Origin: Candidatus Geothermincola primus
GTDB lineage: Bacteria > Actinomycetota > Geothermincolia > Geothermincolales > Geothermincolaceae
Length of the DNA: 36,788 bases
Assembly: GCA_015711725.1 (NCBI GenBank)
Contig: JACVIX010000014.1
Location: forward strand, 1-36,788
Direction: 5' to 3'
The notes under the pieces are model-generated. The model saw only the letters and a program-made list of their open reading frames with translations, was not told the DNA's origin and did no database searches. This document shows, one piece after another, positions 10,376 through 19,359 of this stretch. Position 1 is the stretch's first letter; every line of letters starts with the position of its first letter. The translations under genes and the position numbers were made by a program.

Positions 10376-11680
10376 TTATAGAGTGAAGTCCTTACCGATA
10401 ACAATTACCACGATGCTCTGGTACTTCTTGGTTACGTCATTGTCCACCTGGAGAACGGAAGTCATCTCGCCGAAGAGATCGTTAGTCACTTTCTTGCCCA
10501 CATCCCAGTAACCGGTGGCCACGTAAACGGTGGAAACGTTGTATTTGTTCCTGGCATCTCCAGTCTTGGGCTGATAACCCTTTGTTTTCAGATTCTCGGC
10601 TACTTGGCCCGCAATACCCGGTTTTCCCGATCCATTGAGAACAGTCAGCGAGATACCTCCCGGATTGTTAAGAAGATTGGCGATCACTTCATCAAGAGGT
10701 GGTTCCACCATGCAATATTTTTTCACATTATTGAAAATCTCAGCGGTCTTTTCGGGGTCGTGAATGAAATACCAGACTCCACCTACCATCTTATCCGTTC
10801 CTGGAATGGTTGCCATCTGTATCCTGTCTACCGTGATACCCTGCATGCACTGTGCAATGTTGAGTATCATATCTGGCTTCATGGTGGTCAGGACATAAAG
10901 AATTACCGCATCGAGAATCTGCTTCATTTGCTGGACGTTTCTGATGGTTATGGCTTTTTGCGCCAATGCGTATAGAAATTTTTGCTGATTCTGAATGCGG
11001 TACAGGTCCGCCTCGGGATCGTCCCGGGAACGCGCAATGATCAAAGCTTGTTCCCCGGTTAGATTGTAATCGCCCGCCGGAAGGAGCCCGCCCGCCTTGG
11101 GATCGTCGATGGTCCGGTCCAGATGAAAGGGAACACCCCCGATGGCGTCCACTATTTTTTTGAACGCCACAAAATCCAGGTCCACGAAATGGTGAATCTC
11201 CATTCCGGTCAATTCCTTTACCGCTTTTATCGCTCCCTGAGGCCCTCCGTAAGCGTGGGCAGCGTTGATCTTCTGGCTTCCGTGCCCAGGGATCTGTACT
11301 TTGGTATCTCTGGGGATGGAAACCACCGCAGCTCTTTTATTGATCAGGTCAAGTGAAGCCACTAGCATAACATCGGACCGGCAATAACCGGTCTCTCCTT
11401 TAACACTTCCTCTGTCGGTCCCGATACATAGAATATTCAGGGGCTTATTGGGGTCATGCCATTTGGAGAGCTCCTCATAAAGATCCGGCTCCTTTTCCTC
11501 AGATATAATCATCTCTTGAGCGCGCAGTCTCCAGTAATGCGCCGCAGCCCAGTTACGAATAGGTTTCCATGCCACCAGTCCCAGCACCAGACCGCCAACT
11601 AGCAGGACGTACAACGCCACCTTTAATATAAGTATTTTCCTGCTACGACTTTGAATTTTCCTCCGAGTCAGCCTGTCCAT
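10376..11680 (-). CDS. LCP-family (LytR-CpsA-Psr) cell-wall glycopolymer transferase with LytR_C domain
   Basis: This 434-residue membrane-anchored protein has a short basic cytoplasmic start, one membrane helix at about 16-38, the extracellular LCP domain at about 82-235 and a LytR_C domain at about 335-430. LCP motifs are NILCIGTDRG, the RSDVMLVASLD strand, VVSIPRDTKVQIPG and KINAAHAYGG, and Arg/Asp residues in IARSRDDPEADLYR that bind the polyprenyl pyrophosphate. The family transfers teichoic-acid-like or other glycopolymers from lipid carriers onto peptidoglycan. LCP plus LytR_C is typical of Actinobacteria and other monoderms. The ATG follows a weak GGGAAG site. It lies alone between the EamA and exonuclease VII genes. 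Confidence 0.9.
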   Translation of the reverse strand: MDRLTRRKIQSRSRKILILKVALYVLLVGGLVLGLVAWKPIRNWAAAHYWRLRAQEMIISEEKEPDLYEELSKWHDPNKPLNILCIGTDRGSVKGETGYCRSDVMLVASLDLINKRAAVVSIPRDTKVQIPGHGSQKINAAHAYGGPQGAIKAVKELTGMEIHHFVDLDFVAFKKIVDAIGGVPFHLDRTIDDPKAGGLLPAGDYNLTGEQALIIARSRDDPEADLYRIQNQQKFLYALAQKAITIRNVQQMKQILDAVILYVLTTMKPDMILNIAQCMQGITVDRIQMATIPGTDKMVGGVWYFIHDPEKTAEIFNNVKKYCMVEPPLDEVIANLLNNPGGISLTVLNGSGKPGIAGQVAENLKTKGYQPKTGDARNKYNVSTVYVATGYWDVGKKVTNDLFGEMTSVLQVDNDVTKKYQSIVVIVIGKDFTL

Positions 11681-11941: not shown

Positions 11942-12193
11942 TTAAATCAGATCCTCATTCTTTTCCCCAAAAGCTAATTCTTCCCTTACCACACCCTCAT
12001 CGATGGAACCCAATAGCATTTCCACCTTGCCTCGAGCGTCCGCCAGCTTCTTTCTACTCTCCTTAAGCAGCTTTATCCCTTCCTCAAACAACTCCAGCCC
12101 TTCTTCTAGTTCCAGATCCTCCCTCTCCAAGGTCTGGGTGATCTCCTCGAGGCGGTCCAGCATCTGCCTGAAGGTCATTCCTTCGCCAGCCAT
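11942..12193 (-). CDS. xseB: Exonuclease VII small subunit
   Basis: This 83-residue helical protein matches XseB: MTFRQMLDRLEEI at the start, then the paired helices with LEREDLELEEGLELFEEGIKLL and KLADARGKVEMLL. It wraps around XseA to form exonuclease VII, which degrades single-stranded DNA in both directions. The ATG at 12193 has GGAGGGGAGAGGG before it and is preferred to a GTG at 12214 that overlaps the xseA stop. It directly follows xseA on the same strand, so the two are one operon. It carries an acidic C-terminal tail. Confidence 0.93.
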   Translation of the reverse strand: MAGEGMTFRQMLDRLEEITQTLEREDLELEEGLELFEEGIKLLKESRKKLADARGKVEMLLGSIDEGVVREELAFGEKNEDLI

Positions 12194-12210
12194 CTTCCCT
12201 CTCCCCTCCT

Positions 12211-13692
12211 TCACGGTTCACGGAAAAAATCATCCGGTAGGTCCGCATGGGATTTCCGAGACTCCTGGATAACATCCTTAACCTCGCATTTCATCCCCCC
12301 CTGATATAGCGTCACGTCCACTTGATCCCCCTTGCTAACCTTTGTCGCGTCCTTCAAAGGTTTCTTTGATCCCTCGGGATAGACAATGGCATATCCCCTT
12401 GACAATGCCTTCAATGGATTCAGGGATACCAACTTTCCACCGGTAAACCTCCATGACCCCTCAAAGTTTCTTATCCTCTCTCGAAGGTTCCCCGTTATCA
12501 TATGAGTCAGTTCAACCATTTCCTCGTCTCGCTCTTTGAGAAACCACCTGATCGTTTGAACCAGTTTCGCCTGTCGCAGCCCAATAGCCATGGGCAACTC
12601 TCGATTTTCCCGGGCGTAACCTTTGATTTTCAGATCATGGTACTGAACGGACCTTTCCATTTCACTCAGCGCCCTGATCCAGCTTTCCCTGATGGACGAG
12701 TGAGCTTCCGCCAGGGTTTGTGAGGGAGCCAGGAGAAAGGCTTCCGGGACTCTGAAGCATCGGTGGCGTGAAAGGTATTCTAGCCCCTTCCCCAGATCAT
12801 CTAACTTCTTTTTCCAGGCACTCTCCATTCTTGACTTGATGACATTCAAGCCGTGGATAATGTCGGCTATATATGGCACTACCTTTTGCGCCGCCCCCGT
12901 CGGGGTACTAGCCCGAAAATCGGCTGCAAAATCTGCGATGGTATAATCCGGCTCATGTCCTATGCCAGTAACCACCGGGATCCGGGAGGAGCGTATAGCC
13001 CTAGCCACCTCTTCTGTGTTGAACGCATGGAGATCCTCGAGGGAACCTCCTCCCCTAGCGATAATCAGCACCTCGATCTGGAAATGAGGAGAAATTCTGT
13101 TGAGGAAATCGATGGCATCCACAATCTCCTCAACCGCTCCTTCGCCTTGCACTCTTACACTTCTCAGATAAATAGAAGCAGGGGGGAATCGTTTTCGAAT
13201 ATTGGTTATAACATCCCGAACTGCCGCTCCTTCCACCGAGGAGATAACCCCTATGGAAAAGGGGATCTCCGGTAGGGGGCGTTTGATCTCATCTGAGAAG
13301 AGACCTTCCTCGGAAAGCTTACGGAATAATCTCAAGAACTCTTTCCTTAACCTGCCCTCTCCGCTCTCTTCAGCCTCGAGGACATTGAGACGGTACTGAC
13401 CTTTCTTGACGTATATGCCCAGAACGCCCCGCGCTAAAAGAGAGATCCCCTCTTGCAACTGAAGAGGGAGGGAACGGAGGGCCTCTCCGAAAATAACGCA
13501 TGGTAATACCGCCAGTTCATCACGTAGACTGAAAAAACCAAAGTTCTCATAGCCCAAGCGCAAGTCGCACACTTCCCCTTCCACCCAAATCTCTATCCCT
13601 TTAAGCTGGTTATCCGCCAACCTGTTAACCTCGCTTACGGAATAGATGCGTTCCTCCTCTAGATATTTCCTAGGTGGGTAGCTCTCCTCCAT
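12211..13692 (-). CDS. xseA: Exonuclease VII large subunit
   Basis: This 493-residue protein is the catalytic subunit. An N-terminal OB fold (about 15-110, with YSVSEVNRL and the IEIWVEGEV strand) binds single-stranded DNA. The catalytic domain (about 125-440) shows GVISSVEGAAVRD, ARGGGSLEDLHAFN at 212-225 and GIGHEPDYTIADFAADFRAS, all hallmark XseA motifs. The long helical part 275-400 holds the small subunits, and the C-terminal LSRGYAIV strand is conserved. The ATG is preceded by a perfect -10 box seven bases upstream and lacks a ribosome binding site, so the operon probably starts leaderless. Confidence 0.95.
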   Translation of the reverse strand: MEESYPPRKYLEEERIYSVSEVNRLADNQLKGIEIWVEGEVCDLRLGYENFGFFSLRDELAVLPCVIFGEALRSLPLQLQEGISLLARGVLGIYVKKGQYRLNVLEAEESGEGRLRKEFLRLFRKLSEEGLFSDEIKRPLPEIPFSIGVISSVEGAAVRDVITNIRKRFPPASIYLRSVRVQGEGAVEEIVDAIDFLNRISPHFQIEVLIIARGGGSLEDLHAFNTEEVARAIRSSRIPVVTGIGHEPDYTIADFAADFRASTPTGAAQKVVPYIADIIHGLNVIKSRMESAWKKKLDDLGKGLEYLSRHRCFRVPEAFLLAPSQTLAEAHSSIRESWIRALSEMERSVQYHDLKIKGYARENRELPMAIGLRQAKLVQTIRWFLKERDEEMVELTHMITGNLRERIRNFEGSWRFTGGKLVSLNPLKALSRGYAIVYPEGSKKPLKDATKVSKGDQVDVTLYQGGMKCEVKDVIQESRKSHADLPDDFFREP

Positions 13693-13705: not shown

Positions 13706-14141
13706 TATTCGTATCAGAAGGTGAACTAGGCAGGGTTAGATATAAAAACGGAAAAATAGTAGAAAAAGTCCCTTTAAAGAAAGTTAGCGCAAACCATTAA
13801 CCCGCTTCTTCATGGGTCAAACTTCGAAAAACACGTGGCACTTACCATCGCCTGCTGGATAATTAAGGGCGCTTTTTGTCATTAGACTCTCATATCATTA
13901 TTCTCATAAGGCAAGATGTAGACATTCTTGGCAATCCGCAGAAAACGAAAGATCGCGTTTAAATTTTTCACGGCGTAAAAGGGAATGAAGCTCGCTTGGC
14001 GAAAAATCTCATAAAAGAGTAAAAGGCGATATGGAATTTTGTAATCAGTTATATAGTAGTTTTAAATTTTAAATAACACAACATATAGTATTTTAAAAGT
14101 TGTTCTTATGGCCCAGTGATAACTTAAAGGAGAGATGGGCT
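13706..14141. other. Gene-free intergenic stretch
   Basis: No coding frame of interest is seen. The right half is A+T-rich and carries AAAGGAGAG, the ribosome binding site of the next gene. I compared the 13900-14000 part with common riboswitch cores and recognised none. Confidence 0.5.
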
Positions 14142-14624
14142 GTGGAAATTATCGCTTTCCTCCTACTGGGCTTAATAGCTATGTTGGCGATTGTTCCTCC
14201 TATCATCAGGGGAAGAATTGAGGAATCACCTATCAACTCAACCAGAAACTTTAAAAAGAGCATGCTGGAGATGGCCGCGTCAGTAGATCCCTCTCATTAC
14301 AGGAGAGAGTTGTCCCAGAACCGACGTCGCCTTTTCTTATCCCCACTGCTCACCCATGGCCAAGGGTTGTCTGGTACCAGGATCAGAAACGGAAGAACAT
14401 CCTATTCTAGCCCTATCTCTCAAACTTACGTACAGCGTTATAAGATGCATAGGACCAGCGCTGTTACCAGGCGAAGGCGAGTTTATTTCGTATTAGTATT
14501 TTCCTCGTTGCTTTCCGGACTTTTCGCTTTGGCGCTCCAGAATGCATTGGCGATAGGTTTCTTCGCGACCTTTTCTGGCCTTTTCCTGCTCTATATCACC
14601 CTGGTCTTTATCTTCACCAGATAA
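14142..14624 (+). CDS. Small membrane protein with N-terminal and paired C-terminal helices
   Basis: I do not recognise this 160-residue protein. It has an N-terminal membrane helix (about 4-22), a basic, Ser/Arg-rich hydrophilic middle of about 90 residues, a RRRR patch near 112, and two further membrane helices packed at the C-terminus (about 117-155). The GTG start at 14142 is chosen because AAAGGAGAG sits seven bases upstream; a TTG further upstream gives a longer but unsupported start. The layout resembles membrane proteins near cell-envelope genes, and the genes beyond the facing strand are envelope-related. Function unknown. Confidence 0.6.
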   Translation: MEIIAFLLLGLIAMLAIVPPIIRGRIEESPINSTRNFKKSMLEMAASVDPSHYRRELSQNRRRLFLSPLLTHGQGLSGTRIRNGRTSYSSPISQTYVQRYKMHRTSAVTRRRRVYFVLVFSSLLSGLFALALQNALAIGFFATFSGLFLLYITLVFIFTR

Positions 14625-15132: not shown

Positions 15133-17040
15133 TCACGGTAACAGCTGGATTCCTCCACCTTCCTGATCTCCCCCTCGGGCCAGAGGATTGATGAGCTCCT
15201 TTCCTCCTCTATTTATTAACTTTTTCGCCAATGATTTGGCGAATTCCCTAAAGAAAGACTTGCCTATACCTAGATATTCCTTTAGGACTTTTATGGGTGA
15301 GGTACTAAAAAGAGCTACGCTCAAGCCCCCTACCAGAGCTCCTCCAAAGAAAGAGATAAGAGCCTCATTGAAGGTAAAGCGGGCGCCCGTTATCAAGTGT
15401 ATGGAAAAGTCCAGGAGGAAACCGGTACACCCGCAAAAAGTTATATAGGCCAACTTTTCCACCAAAGCCGTTGTCAGCGCGGTCAACTGGAACTTTAGAT
15501 AGGTCAAAAGGCCTTCCTTCCCGATTATTCCCAAAGAGGTCGAAGCAAGACTGATCCCCTCCATACCGCTGCCTGCCACGGCAGATCCTATGGCCAAGCC
15601 TTCCAGTATTCTTTCGCTGATCCCCGCGATAAAAAGTTTGCCCGTTCCGCCCATCAAACCACCCAAGAAAAATGACAATAATAAAATCGACCAGGAAATC
15701 GGTTTTCCCGTGACTTTATTTATCAAAACGTAAGCGAGAGAATCAGCCATACCATGTACCAGAAAAGTCTTGGCGAAACCGATAAAACCTAGCTTGGACC
15801 ACCCCGAAACCAGTAGGGGATAGAACTGTGCGAAGCACAAAGTAGCTACGGCAACCGAACCCCCTACCACTAGACAACCTAGAAAACATTGAGCGAAGTT
15901 GAAACTGTCCCCACAGGAGAAGGCATAGTAAAGAGCATAACCGATGGCGGCGATTGACCCCAGGATTATAGCCACAACCGCTGTAGCCAACGAGATACCG
16001 AAAGCCAGAGCGATCGCCAACACCAGACAAACTATTATTGCAATCGCCGCCACAGCGGCCAACAGCGCCTGAACAAACTTGTTGGAAAAGATGAAATGGA
16101 GCACGGAGTAAATACATGACCATGTTTTCGAAGCCAGGGGAGCGACAACCGACTTGTAAAAATATCTCATCGCCCCGCCCGCTGCCCTTATCGCGCTCAT
16201 CAGCAACGACCAGCTCTTGGCCAACGCTTTGCATAACAATTCCCATCCACGCTGAAGTAATCCCGAGACCTTATTTCCCAGGGACGCCAATCCCCTGAGA
16301 ATGAATTTGAATGGGTTCCCGCTACTTTGAGCTTCGAGAAATTTCTCAGCTGACCTCACGTCTTCCCAGGGGCCCAGGAAGAGATTGCGGGAGGGGTCCA
16401 ACAAGCTGCCATTCAAAAGCAGAAGGGGATCGATAGGGATGTCGTTGAGATACGCCCCGAAGTGGAGGTGGGGAAGGGATGTGGATTTATCCTTGCACCC
16501 ATCACTTTTCCCTATGATACTCCCTTTACTCACCCGCATTCCCTTTTTTACCGAAGCCTCGGACAGAGAAACATAAGTGGTCTTAATTCCTCCAGCATGT
16601 GCTATGCTCACGCAAATACCCAAAGGGGTATTTCCAGCGAAGGTTATCGTTCCCTCTGAGCTCGCTTTTACCGGCGTACCCACAATCGCATCTATGTCTA
16701 TCCCCGCATGTCCTCCCGATCCGTATGGACCCGTAGCGGGCCGGAAAGGCATAATTATCCTACCCTGCAGCGGCCATACGAAGGCGGGGGATCCGGCCCC
16801 GGAAGGAGCCGCCGAAGCCGGACTGATACAAGAGGAAAATAAGGCGAGGGTAAAGATGACGACTGAGATGAGGGCTAAGAATCTCGGGGCGTTGAGGATT
16901 TTACTCGGCAAGCCGCGGGGGAAGCCATGGCCACACAAGATGCAAGCTTCTACATCATCACAGTTTTTCCTGAGCCTGGGCTCTACGCCGTGAAGTGCCA
17001 TGGACAGACTCGGGAAACCCTGTATTCTGTATCTTCCCAC
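15133..17040 (-). CDS. M23-domain polytopic envelope protein
   Basis: This protein of about 635 residues begins with a cytoplasmic stretch, then a signal or anchor helix (about 52-70). An extracellular LytM/M23 domain follows (about 85-210) with zinc motifs HAGIDID at 111-117 and HLHFG at 191-195. In the motif usually reading TxYxHLS the sequence is TTYVSLS, so one catalytic His is replaced by Ser; such variants occur in actinobacterial M23 proteins and may be inactive. The rest (about 260-600) is a run of roughly eight Ala/Gly-rich hydrophobic helices, ending in a basic tail and a Gly-rich hydrophilic end. I know no standard family with this layout; the hydrophobic part recalls spacer regions of polymorphic toxins. 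The GTG at 17040 follows GGAAGGAG; a start at 17088 or the ATG at 17001 are alternatives. Confidence 0.7.
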   Translation of the reverse strand: MGRYRIQGFPSLSMALHGVEPRLRKNCDDVEACILCGHGFPRGLPSKILNAPRFLALISVVIFTLALFSSCISPASAAPSGAGSPAFVWPLQGRIIMPFRPATGPYGSGGHAGIDIDAIVGTPVKASSEGTITFAGNTPLGICVSIAHAGGIKTTYVSLSEASVKKGMRVSKGSIIGKSDGCKDKSTSLPHLHFGAYLNDIPIDPLLLLNGSLLDPSRNLFLGPWEDVRSAEKFLEAQSSGNPFKFILRGLASLGNKVSGLLQRGWELLCKALAKSWSLLMSAIRAAGGAMRYFYKSVVAPLASKTWSCIYSVLHFIFSNKFVQALLAAVAAIAIIVCLVLAIALAFGISLATAVVAIILGSIAAIGYALYYAFSCGDSFNFAQCFLGCLVVGGSVAVATLCFAQFYPLLVSGWSKLGFIGFAKTFLVHGMADSLAYVLINKVTGKPISWSILLLSFFLGGLMGGTGKLFIAGISERILEGLAIGSAVAGSGMEGISLASTSLGIIGKEGLLTYLKFQLTALTTALVEKLAYITFCGCTGFLLDFSIHLITGARFTFNEALISFFGGALVGGLSVALFSTSPIKVLKEYLGIGKSFFREFAKSLAKKLINRGGKELINPLARGGDQEGGGIQLLP

Positions 17041-17204
17041 CTGCGGCGCTCCTTCCGAGTAAGAACGGCGTCTCAATTCACACCTCACTTTTCTTGCATA
17101 ATTAGATCCCTTCCGGGTGAGAAAACTACTTTAAAGGAAATAAAAAGCAATTCAAGCAAATGGCGACATAGTGTTTATATCAATTGGCTTACTCATTCTG
17201 CTTT

Positions 17205-18791
17205 CTATGGACTGTCCGGTTTTTGTTGAAGGGGTCCTGTGCTTACATAAATTCTTACCCGATCACCGGCATCCAAGAGCTCCCCTCTTCTCGGTTCTTG
17301 GAGAACTATCTTTCCCTCGGGAATCACGTTGGAAGGTTCCTCCAAAACTTCCACTTTAAAACCCATCTCTCCCATGAGACGGCTCGCTTCCTTGGAGTCC
17401 AGCCCAGTAAGGTCCGGCATACTCAAGTTCATGTGGTCTTCAATGGGCGCTGATTCAATAGCTTCGCTCAATTGTGATGAGGGCTCTTTGGGAGAAGAAC
17501 CGATGAAACGAATTCCTGCCAAGCAAAGGAAAAGGATCACAAGGATTAGGAGGGTCACTTTCCAAATATGCAAAGCGCTACCCCGGCGACCTCCGCGGGA
17601 GGATGCCGTCTTTTCCATATGTACTCCTGATAGGTCGCTCACCATTTTTTGAAGATTGGATACCCTTGAAGGTTTTCCTCTATAAGATTCCTGGTTATAG
17701 TTACCCGTATATCGAAAGTCTCCGCTCTCCTCCCGCCCAAGAGGCGTCGTTTCATAGAGATCGCGGGCAGGATTGGGGCGGAAGTTCATCCAAGAAGTCC
17801 CACCTCGGTAATTACCCTGACTGTTATCCTCTGCTTGGGTTAAGTCTCCGTTCTCTTCTGGATCGGAAAGAGCCCGCAAAGGACGATCGCCTGTCTTTTC
17901 AACGCTAAGAGTTCCCGAAACTGATTTATTCACAGGAAAATGCTCGCAAGGAAAGGATTGCCTAGAATGAAGCCAAATAGGCTTTTCCCCAACTAATCCG
18001 TTTTCTTCAGCACATTCAGCTCTTCTCTCACCCAACCCTTTATCCATGGTAAGAATTCCTCGCCAAGGTAAATGGCCGCCTAGAGCTTCCTCAATCTGTT
18101 CCAGAAATACTTTCGCCGAGGGATGGCGATCGGTTGGTTGGAAAGAACAGGCCTTTAAACATATGTTTTTCAACATCGTATTCTCAAAACATGACGAGAG
18201 CAGTTCCCTGCAGAGCACACCCAAAGAAAATACATCTGAGCTACGGGTGCCTTCCTCCCCTCTCAACACCTCTGGAGCCCAATAGACAGAGAGTTCTCGG
18301 AAAAGGCGATCGTCCTCGCTCTCCAAGATAAAAGAATAACCTGGCCTGAGCAGTTTGATATCTCCCGTGCGTTCCACCCATATCTGATGGGGATTTATGC
18401 CTAGAAAATATATCCCCTTGCCCTGAGCGACCGCCATCCCCCCGATGATATCCCGAAGAATTTTAAGGGATTGAGCAGGTGGAAGATCACCGCTTTCTCT
18501 CAGAAGATCCCTCAATAAGATTCCATGAGAATAATCGTTGATTACGAAAAAGTAATCTTCTTCTTGGCCCCAAGTATAGACCCTGGAGATATGGGCGCTT
18601 TTAAGAGAGAGGTTTCTTTCTAGCAGATCGATAAGGATGGCTCTATCTCTTCTCATCTGATTTGGAAATATCAGATCTACCATTACCTGTGTGCCTAGGA
18701 GATGATAATGAGCGAGATAACTTTGAAAAATATCGCCTTTTTCCTTTAGCGCTATCAATGTGTACTTGCCATCGACGGTTTTGTTAATCAT
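17205..18791 (-). CDS. Membrane-anchored Ser/Thr pseudokinase with one PASTA domain
   Basis: This 529-residue protein has a kinase-fold domain (about 5-240), a hydrophilic, low-complexity linker (about 245-405), one membrane helix (about 409-431) and a single extracellular PASTA domain (about 456-520, with MPDLTGLDSKEASRLMGEMG). Kinase landmarks show the fold but not the chemistry: the beta-3 lysine is Asp39 in VMVDLIF, HRDLKPxN reads LGINPHQIW, and DFG reads RPG at 149-151. Kept are YWAPEVL, the Asp of SSDVFSLGVL and the final RHPSA Arg. It should therefore bind partners or peptidoglycan rather than phosphorylate. Family PASTA kinases usually have three or four PASTA units. The ATG at 18791 follows GAGGTATATAAG and a promoter with TTGACA. 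The M23 gene lies downstream on the same strand. Confidence 0.85.
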   Translation of the reverse strand: MINKTVDGKYTLIALKEKGDIFQSYLAHYHLLGTQVMVDLIFPNQMRRDRAILIDLLERNLSLKSAHISRVYTWGQEEDYFFVINDYSHGILLRDLLRESGDLPPAQSLKILRDIIGGMAVAQGKGIYFLGINPHQIWVERTGDIKLLRPGYSFILESEDDRLFRELSVYWAPEVLRGEEGTRSSDVFSLGVLCRELLSSCFENTMLKNICLKACSFQPTDRHPSAKVFLEQIEEALGGHLPWRGILTMDKGLGERRAECAEENGLVGEKPIWLHSRQSFPCEHFPVNKSVSGTLSVEKTGDRPLRALSDPEENGDLTQAEDNSQGNYRGGTSWMNFRPNPARDLYETTPLGREESGDFRYTGNYNQESYRGKPSRVSNLQKMVSDLSGVHMEKTASSRGGRRGSALHIWKVTLLILVILFLCLAGIRFIGSSPKEPSSQLSEAIESAPIEDHMNLSMPDLTGLDSKEASRLMGEMGFKVEVLEEPSNVIPEGKIVLQEPRRGELLDAGDRVRIYVSTGPLQQKPDSP

Positions 18792-19152: not shown

Positions 19153-19359
19153 ATGGATTGGGAAAACTTCATCCTAGGAAGTGTCTGTATCGTTTGGGGA
19201 TGCATCGCAATAGCCTTCCGTAAAGAACTCTATAAGCTGGCGAAAGAGAGCGGGAGGGGCCTAAAGGATATTCGCATACTGAGGCCCTTGATCATTTTCC
19301 TCTGCTTCGCTTTGCCAATCGCTGGATTATATCTAATTCTGATGAGAGGAATATTATAG
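19153..19359 (+). CDS. Small two-helix membrane protein
   Basis: This 68-residue protein has an N-terminal hydrophobic segment (about 5-23), a basic loop with KELYKLAKESGRGLKD, and a second helix (about 45-65). It is not a family I recognise. No strong ribosome binding site is present, but the regular pattern of two helices and charged loop is more protein-like than chance. A near-perfect hairpin AAGTGG/CCACTT lies 22 bases after the stop at 19381-19402. Confidence 0.5.
   Translation: MDWENFILGSVCIVWGCIAIAFRKELYKLAKESGRGLKDIRILRPLIIFLCFALPIAGLYLILMRGIL

Follow-up and report, generated by a model that had tools for sequence, protein, structure and literature searches.

A PASTA-domain pseudokinase maintained beside an M23-domain membrane protein throughout the Candidatus Geothermincolales

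PASTA kinases are central regulators of wall synthesis in Gram-positive bacteria and are normally treated as active enzymes. A gene in the window analysed here, a stretch of 36,788 nucleotides that makes up the entire contig C12 of a 3.17 Mb genome (99.7% complete), raises the question of what such a receptor might be kept for once its catalytic residues have gone. From its sequence the gene had been predicted to encode a PASTA-domain protein with a catalytically dead kinase domain, lying next to an M23-domain membrane protein. Below, PSK denotes the PASTA pseudokinase gene and its protein, and M23mem the M23-domain membrane protein next door. The features of the locus are collected in Table 1.

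Table 1. Features of the pseudokinase locus (positions refer to the window)
Feature	Position	Strand	Basis or remark
PSK gene, 528 aa	17205..18791	-	Open reading frame; Pfam Pkinase and PASTA; orthologues order-wide
Pseudokinase domain, residues 8-238	18078..18770	-	AlphaFold2 block pLDDT 88-98; Foldseek Stk1/PknB E=2.6e-16
Beta-3 Lys replaced by Asp39 (VMVD)	18675..18677	-	Asp in 16/17, Glu in 1/17 orthologues
Catalytic loop HRDLKPxN replaced by FLGINPHQ, residues 129-136	18384..18407	-	Family consensus YLGLNPxQ
DFG replaced by R149-P-G	18339..18347	-	Arg in 16/18 orthologues
APE motif intact (WAPEV, E174)	18270..18278	-	E174 invariant in the family
Single transmembrane helix, residues 405-427	17511..17579	-	Hydropathy and AlphaFold2 helix
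Single PASTA domain	17238..17420	-	PF03793 (genome search, hmmscan); AlphaFold2 block pLDDT about 79-96
M23mem: signal anchor, M23/LytM domain, polytopic membrane C-half	15133..17088	-	Same-strand gene downstream of PSK
M23/LytM domain	16426..16713	-	Zn ligands H127, D131, H209 and first His of HxH (H207) kept
M23mem YxH catalytic His replaced by Ser174	16569-16567	-	Role of the His from PMC5519744
Small putative membrane protein	14100..14624	+	Conserved beside the pair, opposite strand; no Pfam match
xseA, exonuclease VII large subunit	12211..13692	-	Conserved neighbour
xseB	11942..12214	-	Conserved neighbour
LytR-CpsA-Psr (LCP) protein	10376..11680	-	Conserved neighbour

Fold and catalytic positions of the pseudokinase

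The limits given for the gene in the original prediction proved correct: the frame runs on the minus strand from an ATG at 18791 to a stop that ends at 17205. Pfam recognises a Pkinase domain (E=1.6e-14, 54.4 bits against a cut-off of 31.7) and, as had been claimed, one PASTA unit only (E=1.2e-12, 48 bits against 23.2), the fold of which AlphaFold2 also predicts with confidence. Against the PASTA-kinase model NF033483 of NCBIfam the protein scores 103 bits and does not reach the curated cut-off of 450. Structure prediction, one of the checks proposed with the claim, returned a bilobal kinase fold for residues 1-240 (AlphaFold2 with an 18-row alignment, block pLDDT 88-98), followed by a linker predicted to be disordered (about residues 247-403). 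The best PDB matches found by Foldseek were S. aureus Stk1/PknB, ranked first, and M. tuberculosis PknA/PknB, and an HMM of the PSK family had PknA, Stk1 and StkP as its first matches. Elsewhere in the window, an Rfam scan found one tRNA and no other RNA, and promoter and terminator scans stayed near chance level. The 1.2-kb gap upstream of PSK holds, on the opposite strand, an open reading frame of 68 aa that resembles a small membrane protein (19153-19359, plus strand).

The prediction held that the fold was intact around the APE, DxFSLG and RHPSA motifs while all three catalytic centres had changed, and the alignments bear this out. PSK retains WAPEV (E174), DVFSLG (D186) and DRHPS (R222), and the columns of the APE Glu (E208), the helix-F Asp (D220) and the Arg partner of APE (R280) are each unchanged in 18 of 18 orthologues. 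The beta-3 Lys is indeed Asp, and DFG indeed reads RPG, a motif of the same length with no deletion. The loss of HRDLKPxN likewise stands, but its replacement had been read one residue out of register, as LGINPHQIW; the loop is F129-LGINPH-Q136, in which the HRD Asp has become Gly and the catalytic Asn has become Gln. The alpha-C Glu is gone too, its place taken by Leu. Had a Lys, Asp or DFG Asp been displaced to another position, this would have told against the claim; profile and motif alignments of PSK revealed none.

These losses are conserved across the whole order, and on this ground PSK can be called a pseudokinase. The Lys72 position is acidic in 17 of 17 orthologues and the DFG Asp (D184) position is Arg in nearly all (Table 1). 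The alpha-C Glu (E91) column holds a hydrophobic residue (Leu, Ile, Val, Met or Cys) in every one of 17, the HRD Asp (D166) column Gly in 17 of 18 and Ala in the remaining one, and the catalytic Asn column Gln in 15/18; at the C-spine Ala, Glu is found in 11/17. Within PSK the remodelled cleft keeps a polar set made up of D39, N/S133, Q136, R149 and E157.

Descent and selection within the order

All 18 of the Candidatus Geothermincolales genomes examined (G000-G017; Actinomycetota) contain a PSK orthologue. Several of the loci that bear one belong to Candidatus Solincola, class Ca. Geothermincolia, as seen when public contigs were scanned with a subset of the alignment; a scan of public genome contigs with the single PSK protein gave no match, whereas an alignment of closer relatives did. 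When 297 Actinomycetota genomes were searched, members of the order matched at E<=5e-83 and the best match outside it reached 1e-36. The top matches outside the order, whose motifs we inspected, carry VAxK, HRDxKPxN and DF/LG and are therefore canonical kinases; no PSK orthologue was found among the other Actinomycetota genomes of this search.

When 91 kinase domains were placed in a tree, the PSK family formed one side of a branch with an SH-aLRT of 100, obtained by a quick method without bootstrap in which long branches were flagged and from which we make no claim on the deep placement of PSK. Its subclades mirror the genome families, namely that of the window with G001, that of G002, and a Solincola-type family, and this branching in step with the genomes points to vertical inheritance. 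The domain make-up varies among them: Solincola-type orthologues carry a PKD domain, and in the G002 family the protein is 387 aa long and has no PASTA domain, while the pseudokinase and transmembrane helix are kept and the gene abuts M23mem. Since PASTA can thus be dispensed with, the cytoplasmic domain and the transmembrane helix appear to be the core of PSK.

Every orthologue inspected has an open frame. In close pairs, dN/dS is about 0.13-0.22 for the kinase domain, similar to the values for PASTA and PKD, and about 0.3-0.5 for the linker and transmembrane region. Columns of the former active site have an entropy of 0.93 bits, as against 1.61 in the rest of the domain (P=3.6e-4, one-sided Mann-Whitney). 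PSK is an order-specific, vertically inherited gene under purifying selection, which is at its strongest near the former cleft, and it is not in decay.

The neighbouring membrane protein and the other kinases of the genome

The prediction had also placed an M23-domain membrane protein next to PSK, and rightly so: M23mem has a signal anchor, and at each locus of the order that allowed both genes to be read PSK is its immediate upstream neighbour on the same strand, often abutting or overlapping it. Beyond M23mem, most loci of the order continue with the oppositely oriented gene of the small membrane protein, then with xseA, xseB and the gene of the LCP protein. M23mem itself is found class-wide, in 31 of the 31 genomes searched. 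Crude gene calling missed or left unclustered several sister-order M23mem genes that a genome search recovered; at 13 loci of the sister orders, no kinase-like open reading frame was found near M23mem. The pair is therefore not obligate, and it would seem that PSK joined, or stayed beside, an older M23mem in this order only.

Across M23mem the HxxxD motif and both His of HLH are invariant. The His of YxH is absent from all full-length proteins inspected, being Ser, Ala or Cys in the order and Asp or Gly in sister orders; its counterpart in LytM is H260, a residue reported to be indispensable to catalysis (PMC5519744). In this genome the two remaining M23 proteins that score well retain it (YYMHL). 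The closest solved structure to the LytM domain of M23mem is that of DipM, which is described as a catalytically inactive regulator of autolysins (PMC10336132). Given this loss and this closest structure, M23mem is predicted to be probably impaired as a peptidase, and it may be a regulator instead. For its membrane half no recognised relative was found; among the matches listed by Foldseek, the LytM domain alone was represented.

A second, active PASTA kinase, which the original prediction advised looking for, is present on contig C53, unlinked to the PSK locus on C12. It is a canonical PknB of 606 aa with four PASTA hits and its active-site motifs in place, encoded in the order PP2C phosphatase, FtsW, PBP, a 448-aa protein, PknB. 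In actinobacterial operons the slot beside pknB is usually occupied by pknA. Here the 448-aa protein (L044:4876-6222) stands at that position, and it is itself a degenerate kinase with two PASTA domains, HGNLVPEK and DSG. In its family the Lys is mostly kept, HRDLKPxN is replaced by HGSLDERH or HGNLVPEK and DFG by DPG or DSG, and APE is not alignable; nearly every genome of the order has it, and it was not found in the sister orders. A third pseudokinase, likewise specific to the order and PKD-tailed (L045:1738-3189, contig C37), has HLFL where HRDx and KDPA where xDFG would stand, and is present in 14/18 genomes of the order. Within the order there are, in addition, duplicates of PknB that have lost HRD (HGG; L113:4995-6647, L112:5620-7227 and L118:1301-2938), and pseudokinases seem to emerge from PknB repeatedly in the Geothermincolales.

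The genome further encodes another canonical kinase, on contig C18, and a MurJ that is a separate frame of 572 aa with no kinase domain. The PP2C phosphatase encoded together with PknB (L044, frame 552-1886) has a C-terminal PASTA domain of its own, and a 287-aa protein on contig C27 (L047, minus strand, about 1514-2377) combines two PASTA domains with CxxCxGxG zinc-finger-like repeats.

Possible role and relation to known families

Throughout the order the fold is kept, every catalytic residue is replaced alike and the gene pair is stable. We consider it probable, at roughly 0.6, that PSK is a single-pass membrane pseudokinase which goes back to a PASTA kinase of the PknB type and has been retained as a non-catalytic adaptor of the envelope, acting jointly with M23mem. 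The role of a docking protein appears the most likely because the catalytic residues have been lost and yet the dead version persists order-wide beside M23mem. In active kinases Lys72 lies opposite the DFG Asp across the phosphates of ATP. As these two charges are swapped in PSK, we infer that a reversed ion pair between Asp39 and Arg149, replacing that of Lys72 and Asp184, could hold the cleft shut without nucleotide, and that the cytoplasmic domain might serve as a docking platform in a nucleotide-free state. It may dock the membrane domain of M23mem, the active PknB, or both; PknB and the PP2C phosphatase are encoded and thus available to phosphorylate PSK or to pair with it. PSK would then work with M23mem at the membrane, where the outward PASTA domain, together with PKD in the Solincola-type sister family, may touch peptidoglycan, the wall or the LytM-like domain; the latter, having lost one of its two catalytic histidines, may regulate and not cleave. 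Of the original suggestion, the pseudokinase and its tie to M23mem are borne out, whereas the sensing of peptidoglycan, in view of the PASTA-less G002 family, and the scaffold are presumptive. Against an adaptor it can be said that M23mem occurs in sister orders where no pseudokinase was found beside it, that the G002 family does without PASTA, that a shared operon could mean co-regulation only, and that the unusual pseudokinases SelO and SidJ have enzyme activities. A bolder extension, which we offer tentatively and think rather unlikely as a whole, is that the order has shifted some of its envelope signalling to at least three order-specific pseudokinases (PSK, the one with two PASTA domains at the pknA position and the PKD-tailed one) arranged around one active PknB, and that PSK and M23mem, both dead as enzymes, join in a transenvelope complex that couples a nucleotide-free, charge-swapped cleft inside to a zinc-loaded, non-hydrolytic LytM outside.

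It is possible, though we regard it as unlikely, that PSK is instead a phospho-switch like MviN: PknB would phosphorylate its linker or tail, an FHA or other reader would bind there and peptidoglycan synthesis would be controlled, with M23mem merely co-transcribed. There is precedent in the M. tuberculosis MviN pseudokinase, which regulates wall synthesis once phosphorylated by PknB according to a 2025 review (PMC12599244). The genome encodes both PknB and PP2C, its MurJ has no fused pseudokinase, so that the role is vacant, and the long disordered linker (residues 247-403) could carry sites. Against this, conservation of the linker is poor (dN/dS about 0.3-0.5) and the alignment shows no Thr motif shared by the family; PSK is far from MviN in sequence (17-22 bits), and its positional partner across the order is M23mem, not MurJ.

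An allosteric partnership, in which an N-lobe heterodimer with PknB activates or restrains that kinase and the link with M23mem is secondary, strikes us as doubtful. In eukaryotes, pairs of inactive and active kinases do work by allostery, PSK shares the architecture and ancestry of PknB, and another PASTA pseudokinase adjoins pknB in the order. Among the residues R10, L33 and D76, which we take to be those of the PknB back-to-back dimer, the Arg equivalent to R10 is kept in 16/17 and L or I at the position of L33 in 13/17; the D76 equivalent, however, is not conserved, so that R10 alone of the three is nearly invariant, and there is no linkage between PSK and pknB.

We think it very improbable that, like SelO or SidJ, PSK has gained a new enzymatic activity through its remodelled cleft. 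Few parts of the protein are as constrained as the former active site, whose polar residues persist, but in SelO and SidJ residues of the Lys and Asp type that serve ATP and metal are retained (PMC12599244), whereas PSK has lost every such position, and a Glu at the Ala of the adenine roof would be expected to clash with adenine. A decaying pseudogene or an assembly artefact, which the loss of all catalytic residues might bring to mind, can be set aside in view of the order-wide open frames, the same substitutions throughout, dN/dS well below 1 and the invariant fold residues.

An order-wide, constrained PASTA pseudokinase suggests that the layout of kinase, transmembrane helix and PASTA can be useful without any catalysis, and PSK provides a natural case in which to study what the kinase fold does alone. 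With M23mem, it lets one ask whether pairs of a pseudokinase and a pseudo-peptidase carry wall signals, and the exchange of charges in the Lys/Asp ion pair yields a specific structural prediction that can be tested.

How does this pair compare with known systems? Like the degenerate LytM regulators DipM, EnvC, NlpD and SpoIIQ, M23mem has an M23 fold minus a catalytic residue. It differs from EnvC and NlpD, which have lost Zn ligands, in keeping all three (HxxxD, HxH), and from these regulators in its polytopic membrane half.

PSK falls under the general definition of a pseudokinase, having lost the VAIK Lys, the HRD Asp and the DFG Asp on a kinase fold. The 2025 review (PMC12599244) distinguishes seven bacterial families, and judged by those published defining features that can be tested here PSK appears to fit none of them. 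ActPs2 has Arg for the Lys, Asn for the HRD Asp and a deletion at DFG, where PSK has Asp, Gly and a full-length RPG. GLW pseudokinases read GLW for HRD and LLLL/W at beta-3, PSK FLG and VMVD. CP1 proteins have no transmembrane helix and carry a COG3899 domain, while PSK has one helix and PASTA, and DYD/DLHK proteins retain HRD and/or DFG, both lost in PSK. A C-terminal PQQ-type domain is common, not universal, in ActPs1, a family related to Act1; by Pfam, PSK consists of Pkinase and PASTA alone. YukC/EssB of T7SSb is a membrane-anchored pseudokinase scaffold and in its anchoring resembles PSK, but it has no PASTA and belongs to another family and system. Neither an open full-text search nor the parts of that review drawn on here describe a PASTA pseudokinase.

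The comparison with MviN suggested in the original prediction is one of function only and does not extend to sequence. The MviN pseudokinase of M. tuberculosis (ActPs3; 3UQC) has, as PSK has, lost all three motifs and is an actinobacterial envelope protein (PMC12599244). The MviN-type domain, however, forms a fusion with MurJ, shows deletions in its activation loop and reads VALT and LSIDHPSR, whereas PSK has no MurJ match in Pfam. Two MurJ-fused pseudokinase domains score 22.4 and 17.3 bits with the PSK profile, as against about 100-123 bits for canonical PknB-type kinases, which rules out membership of MviN/ActPs3 and marks PSK as a degenerated PknB-type protein. It is with the PASTA Ser/Thr kinases PknB, PrkC, StkP and Stk1 that PSK shares its fold, its sequence ancestry and its kinase-transmembrane-PASTA layout; those kinases have the catalytic Lys, the Asp, DFG and several PASTA domains, whereas PSK has none of these catalytic elements and a single PASTA domain.
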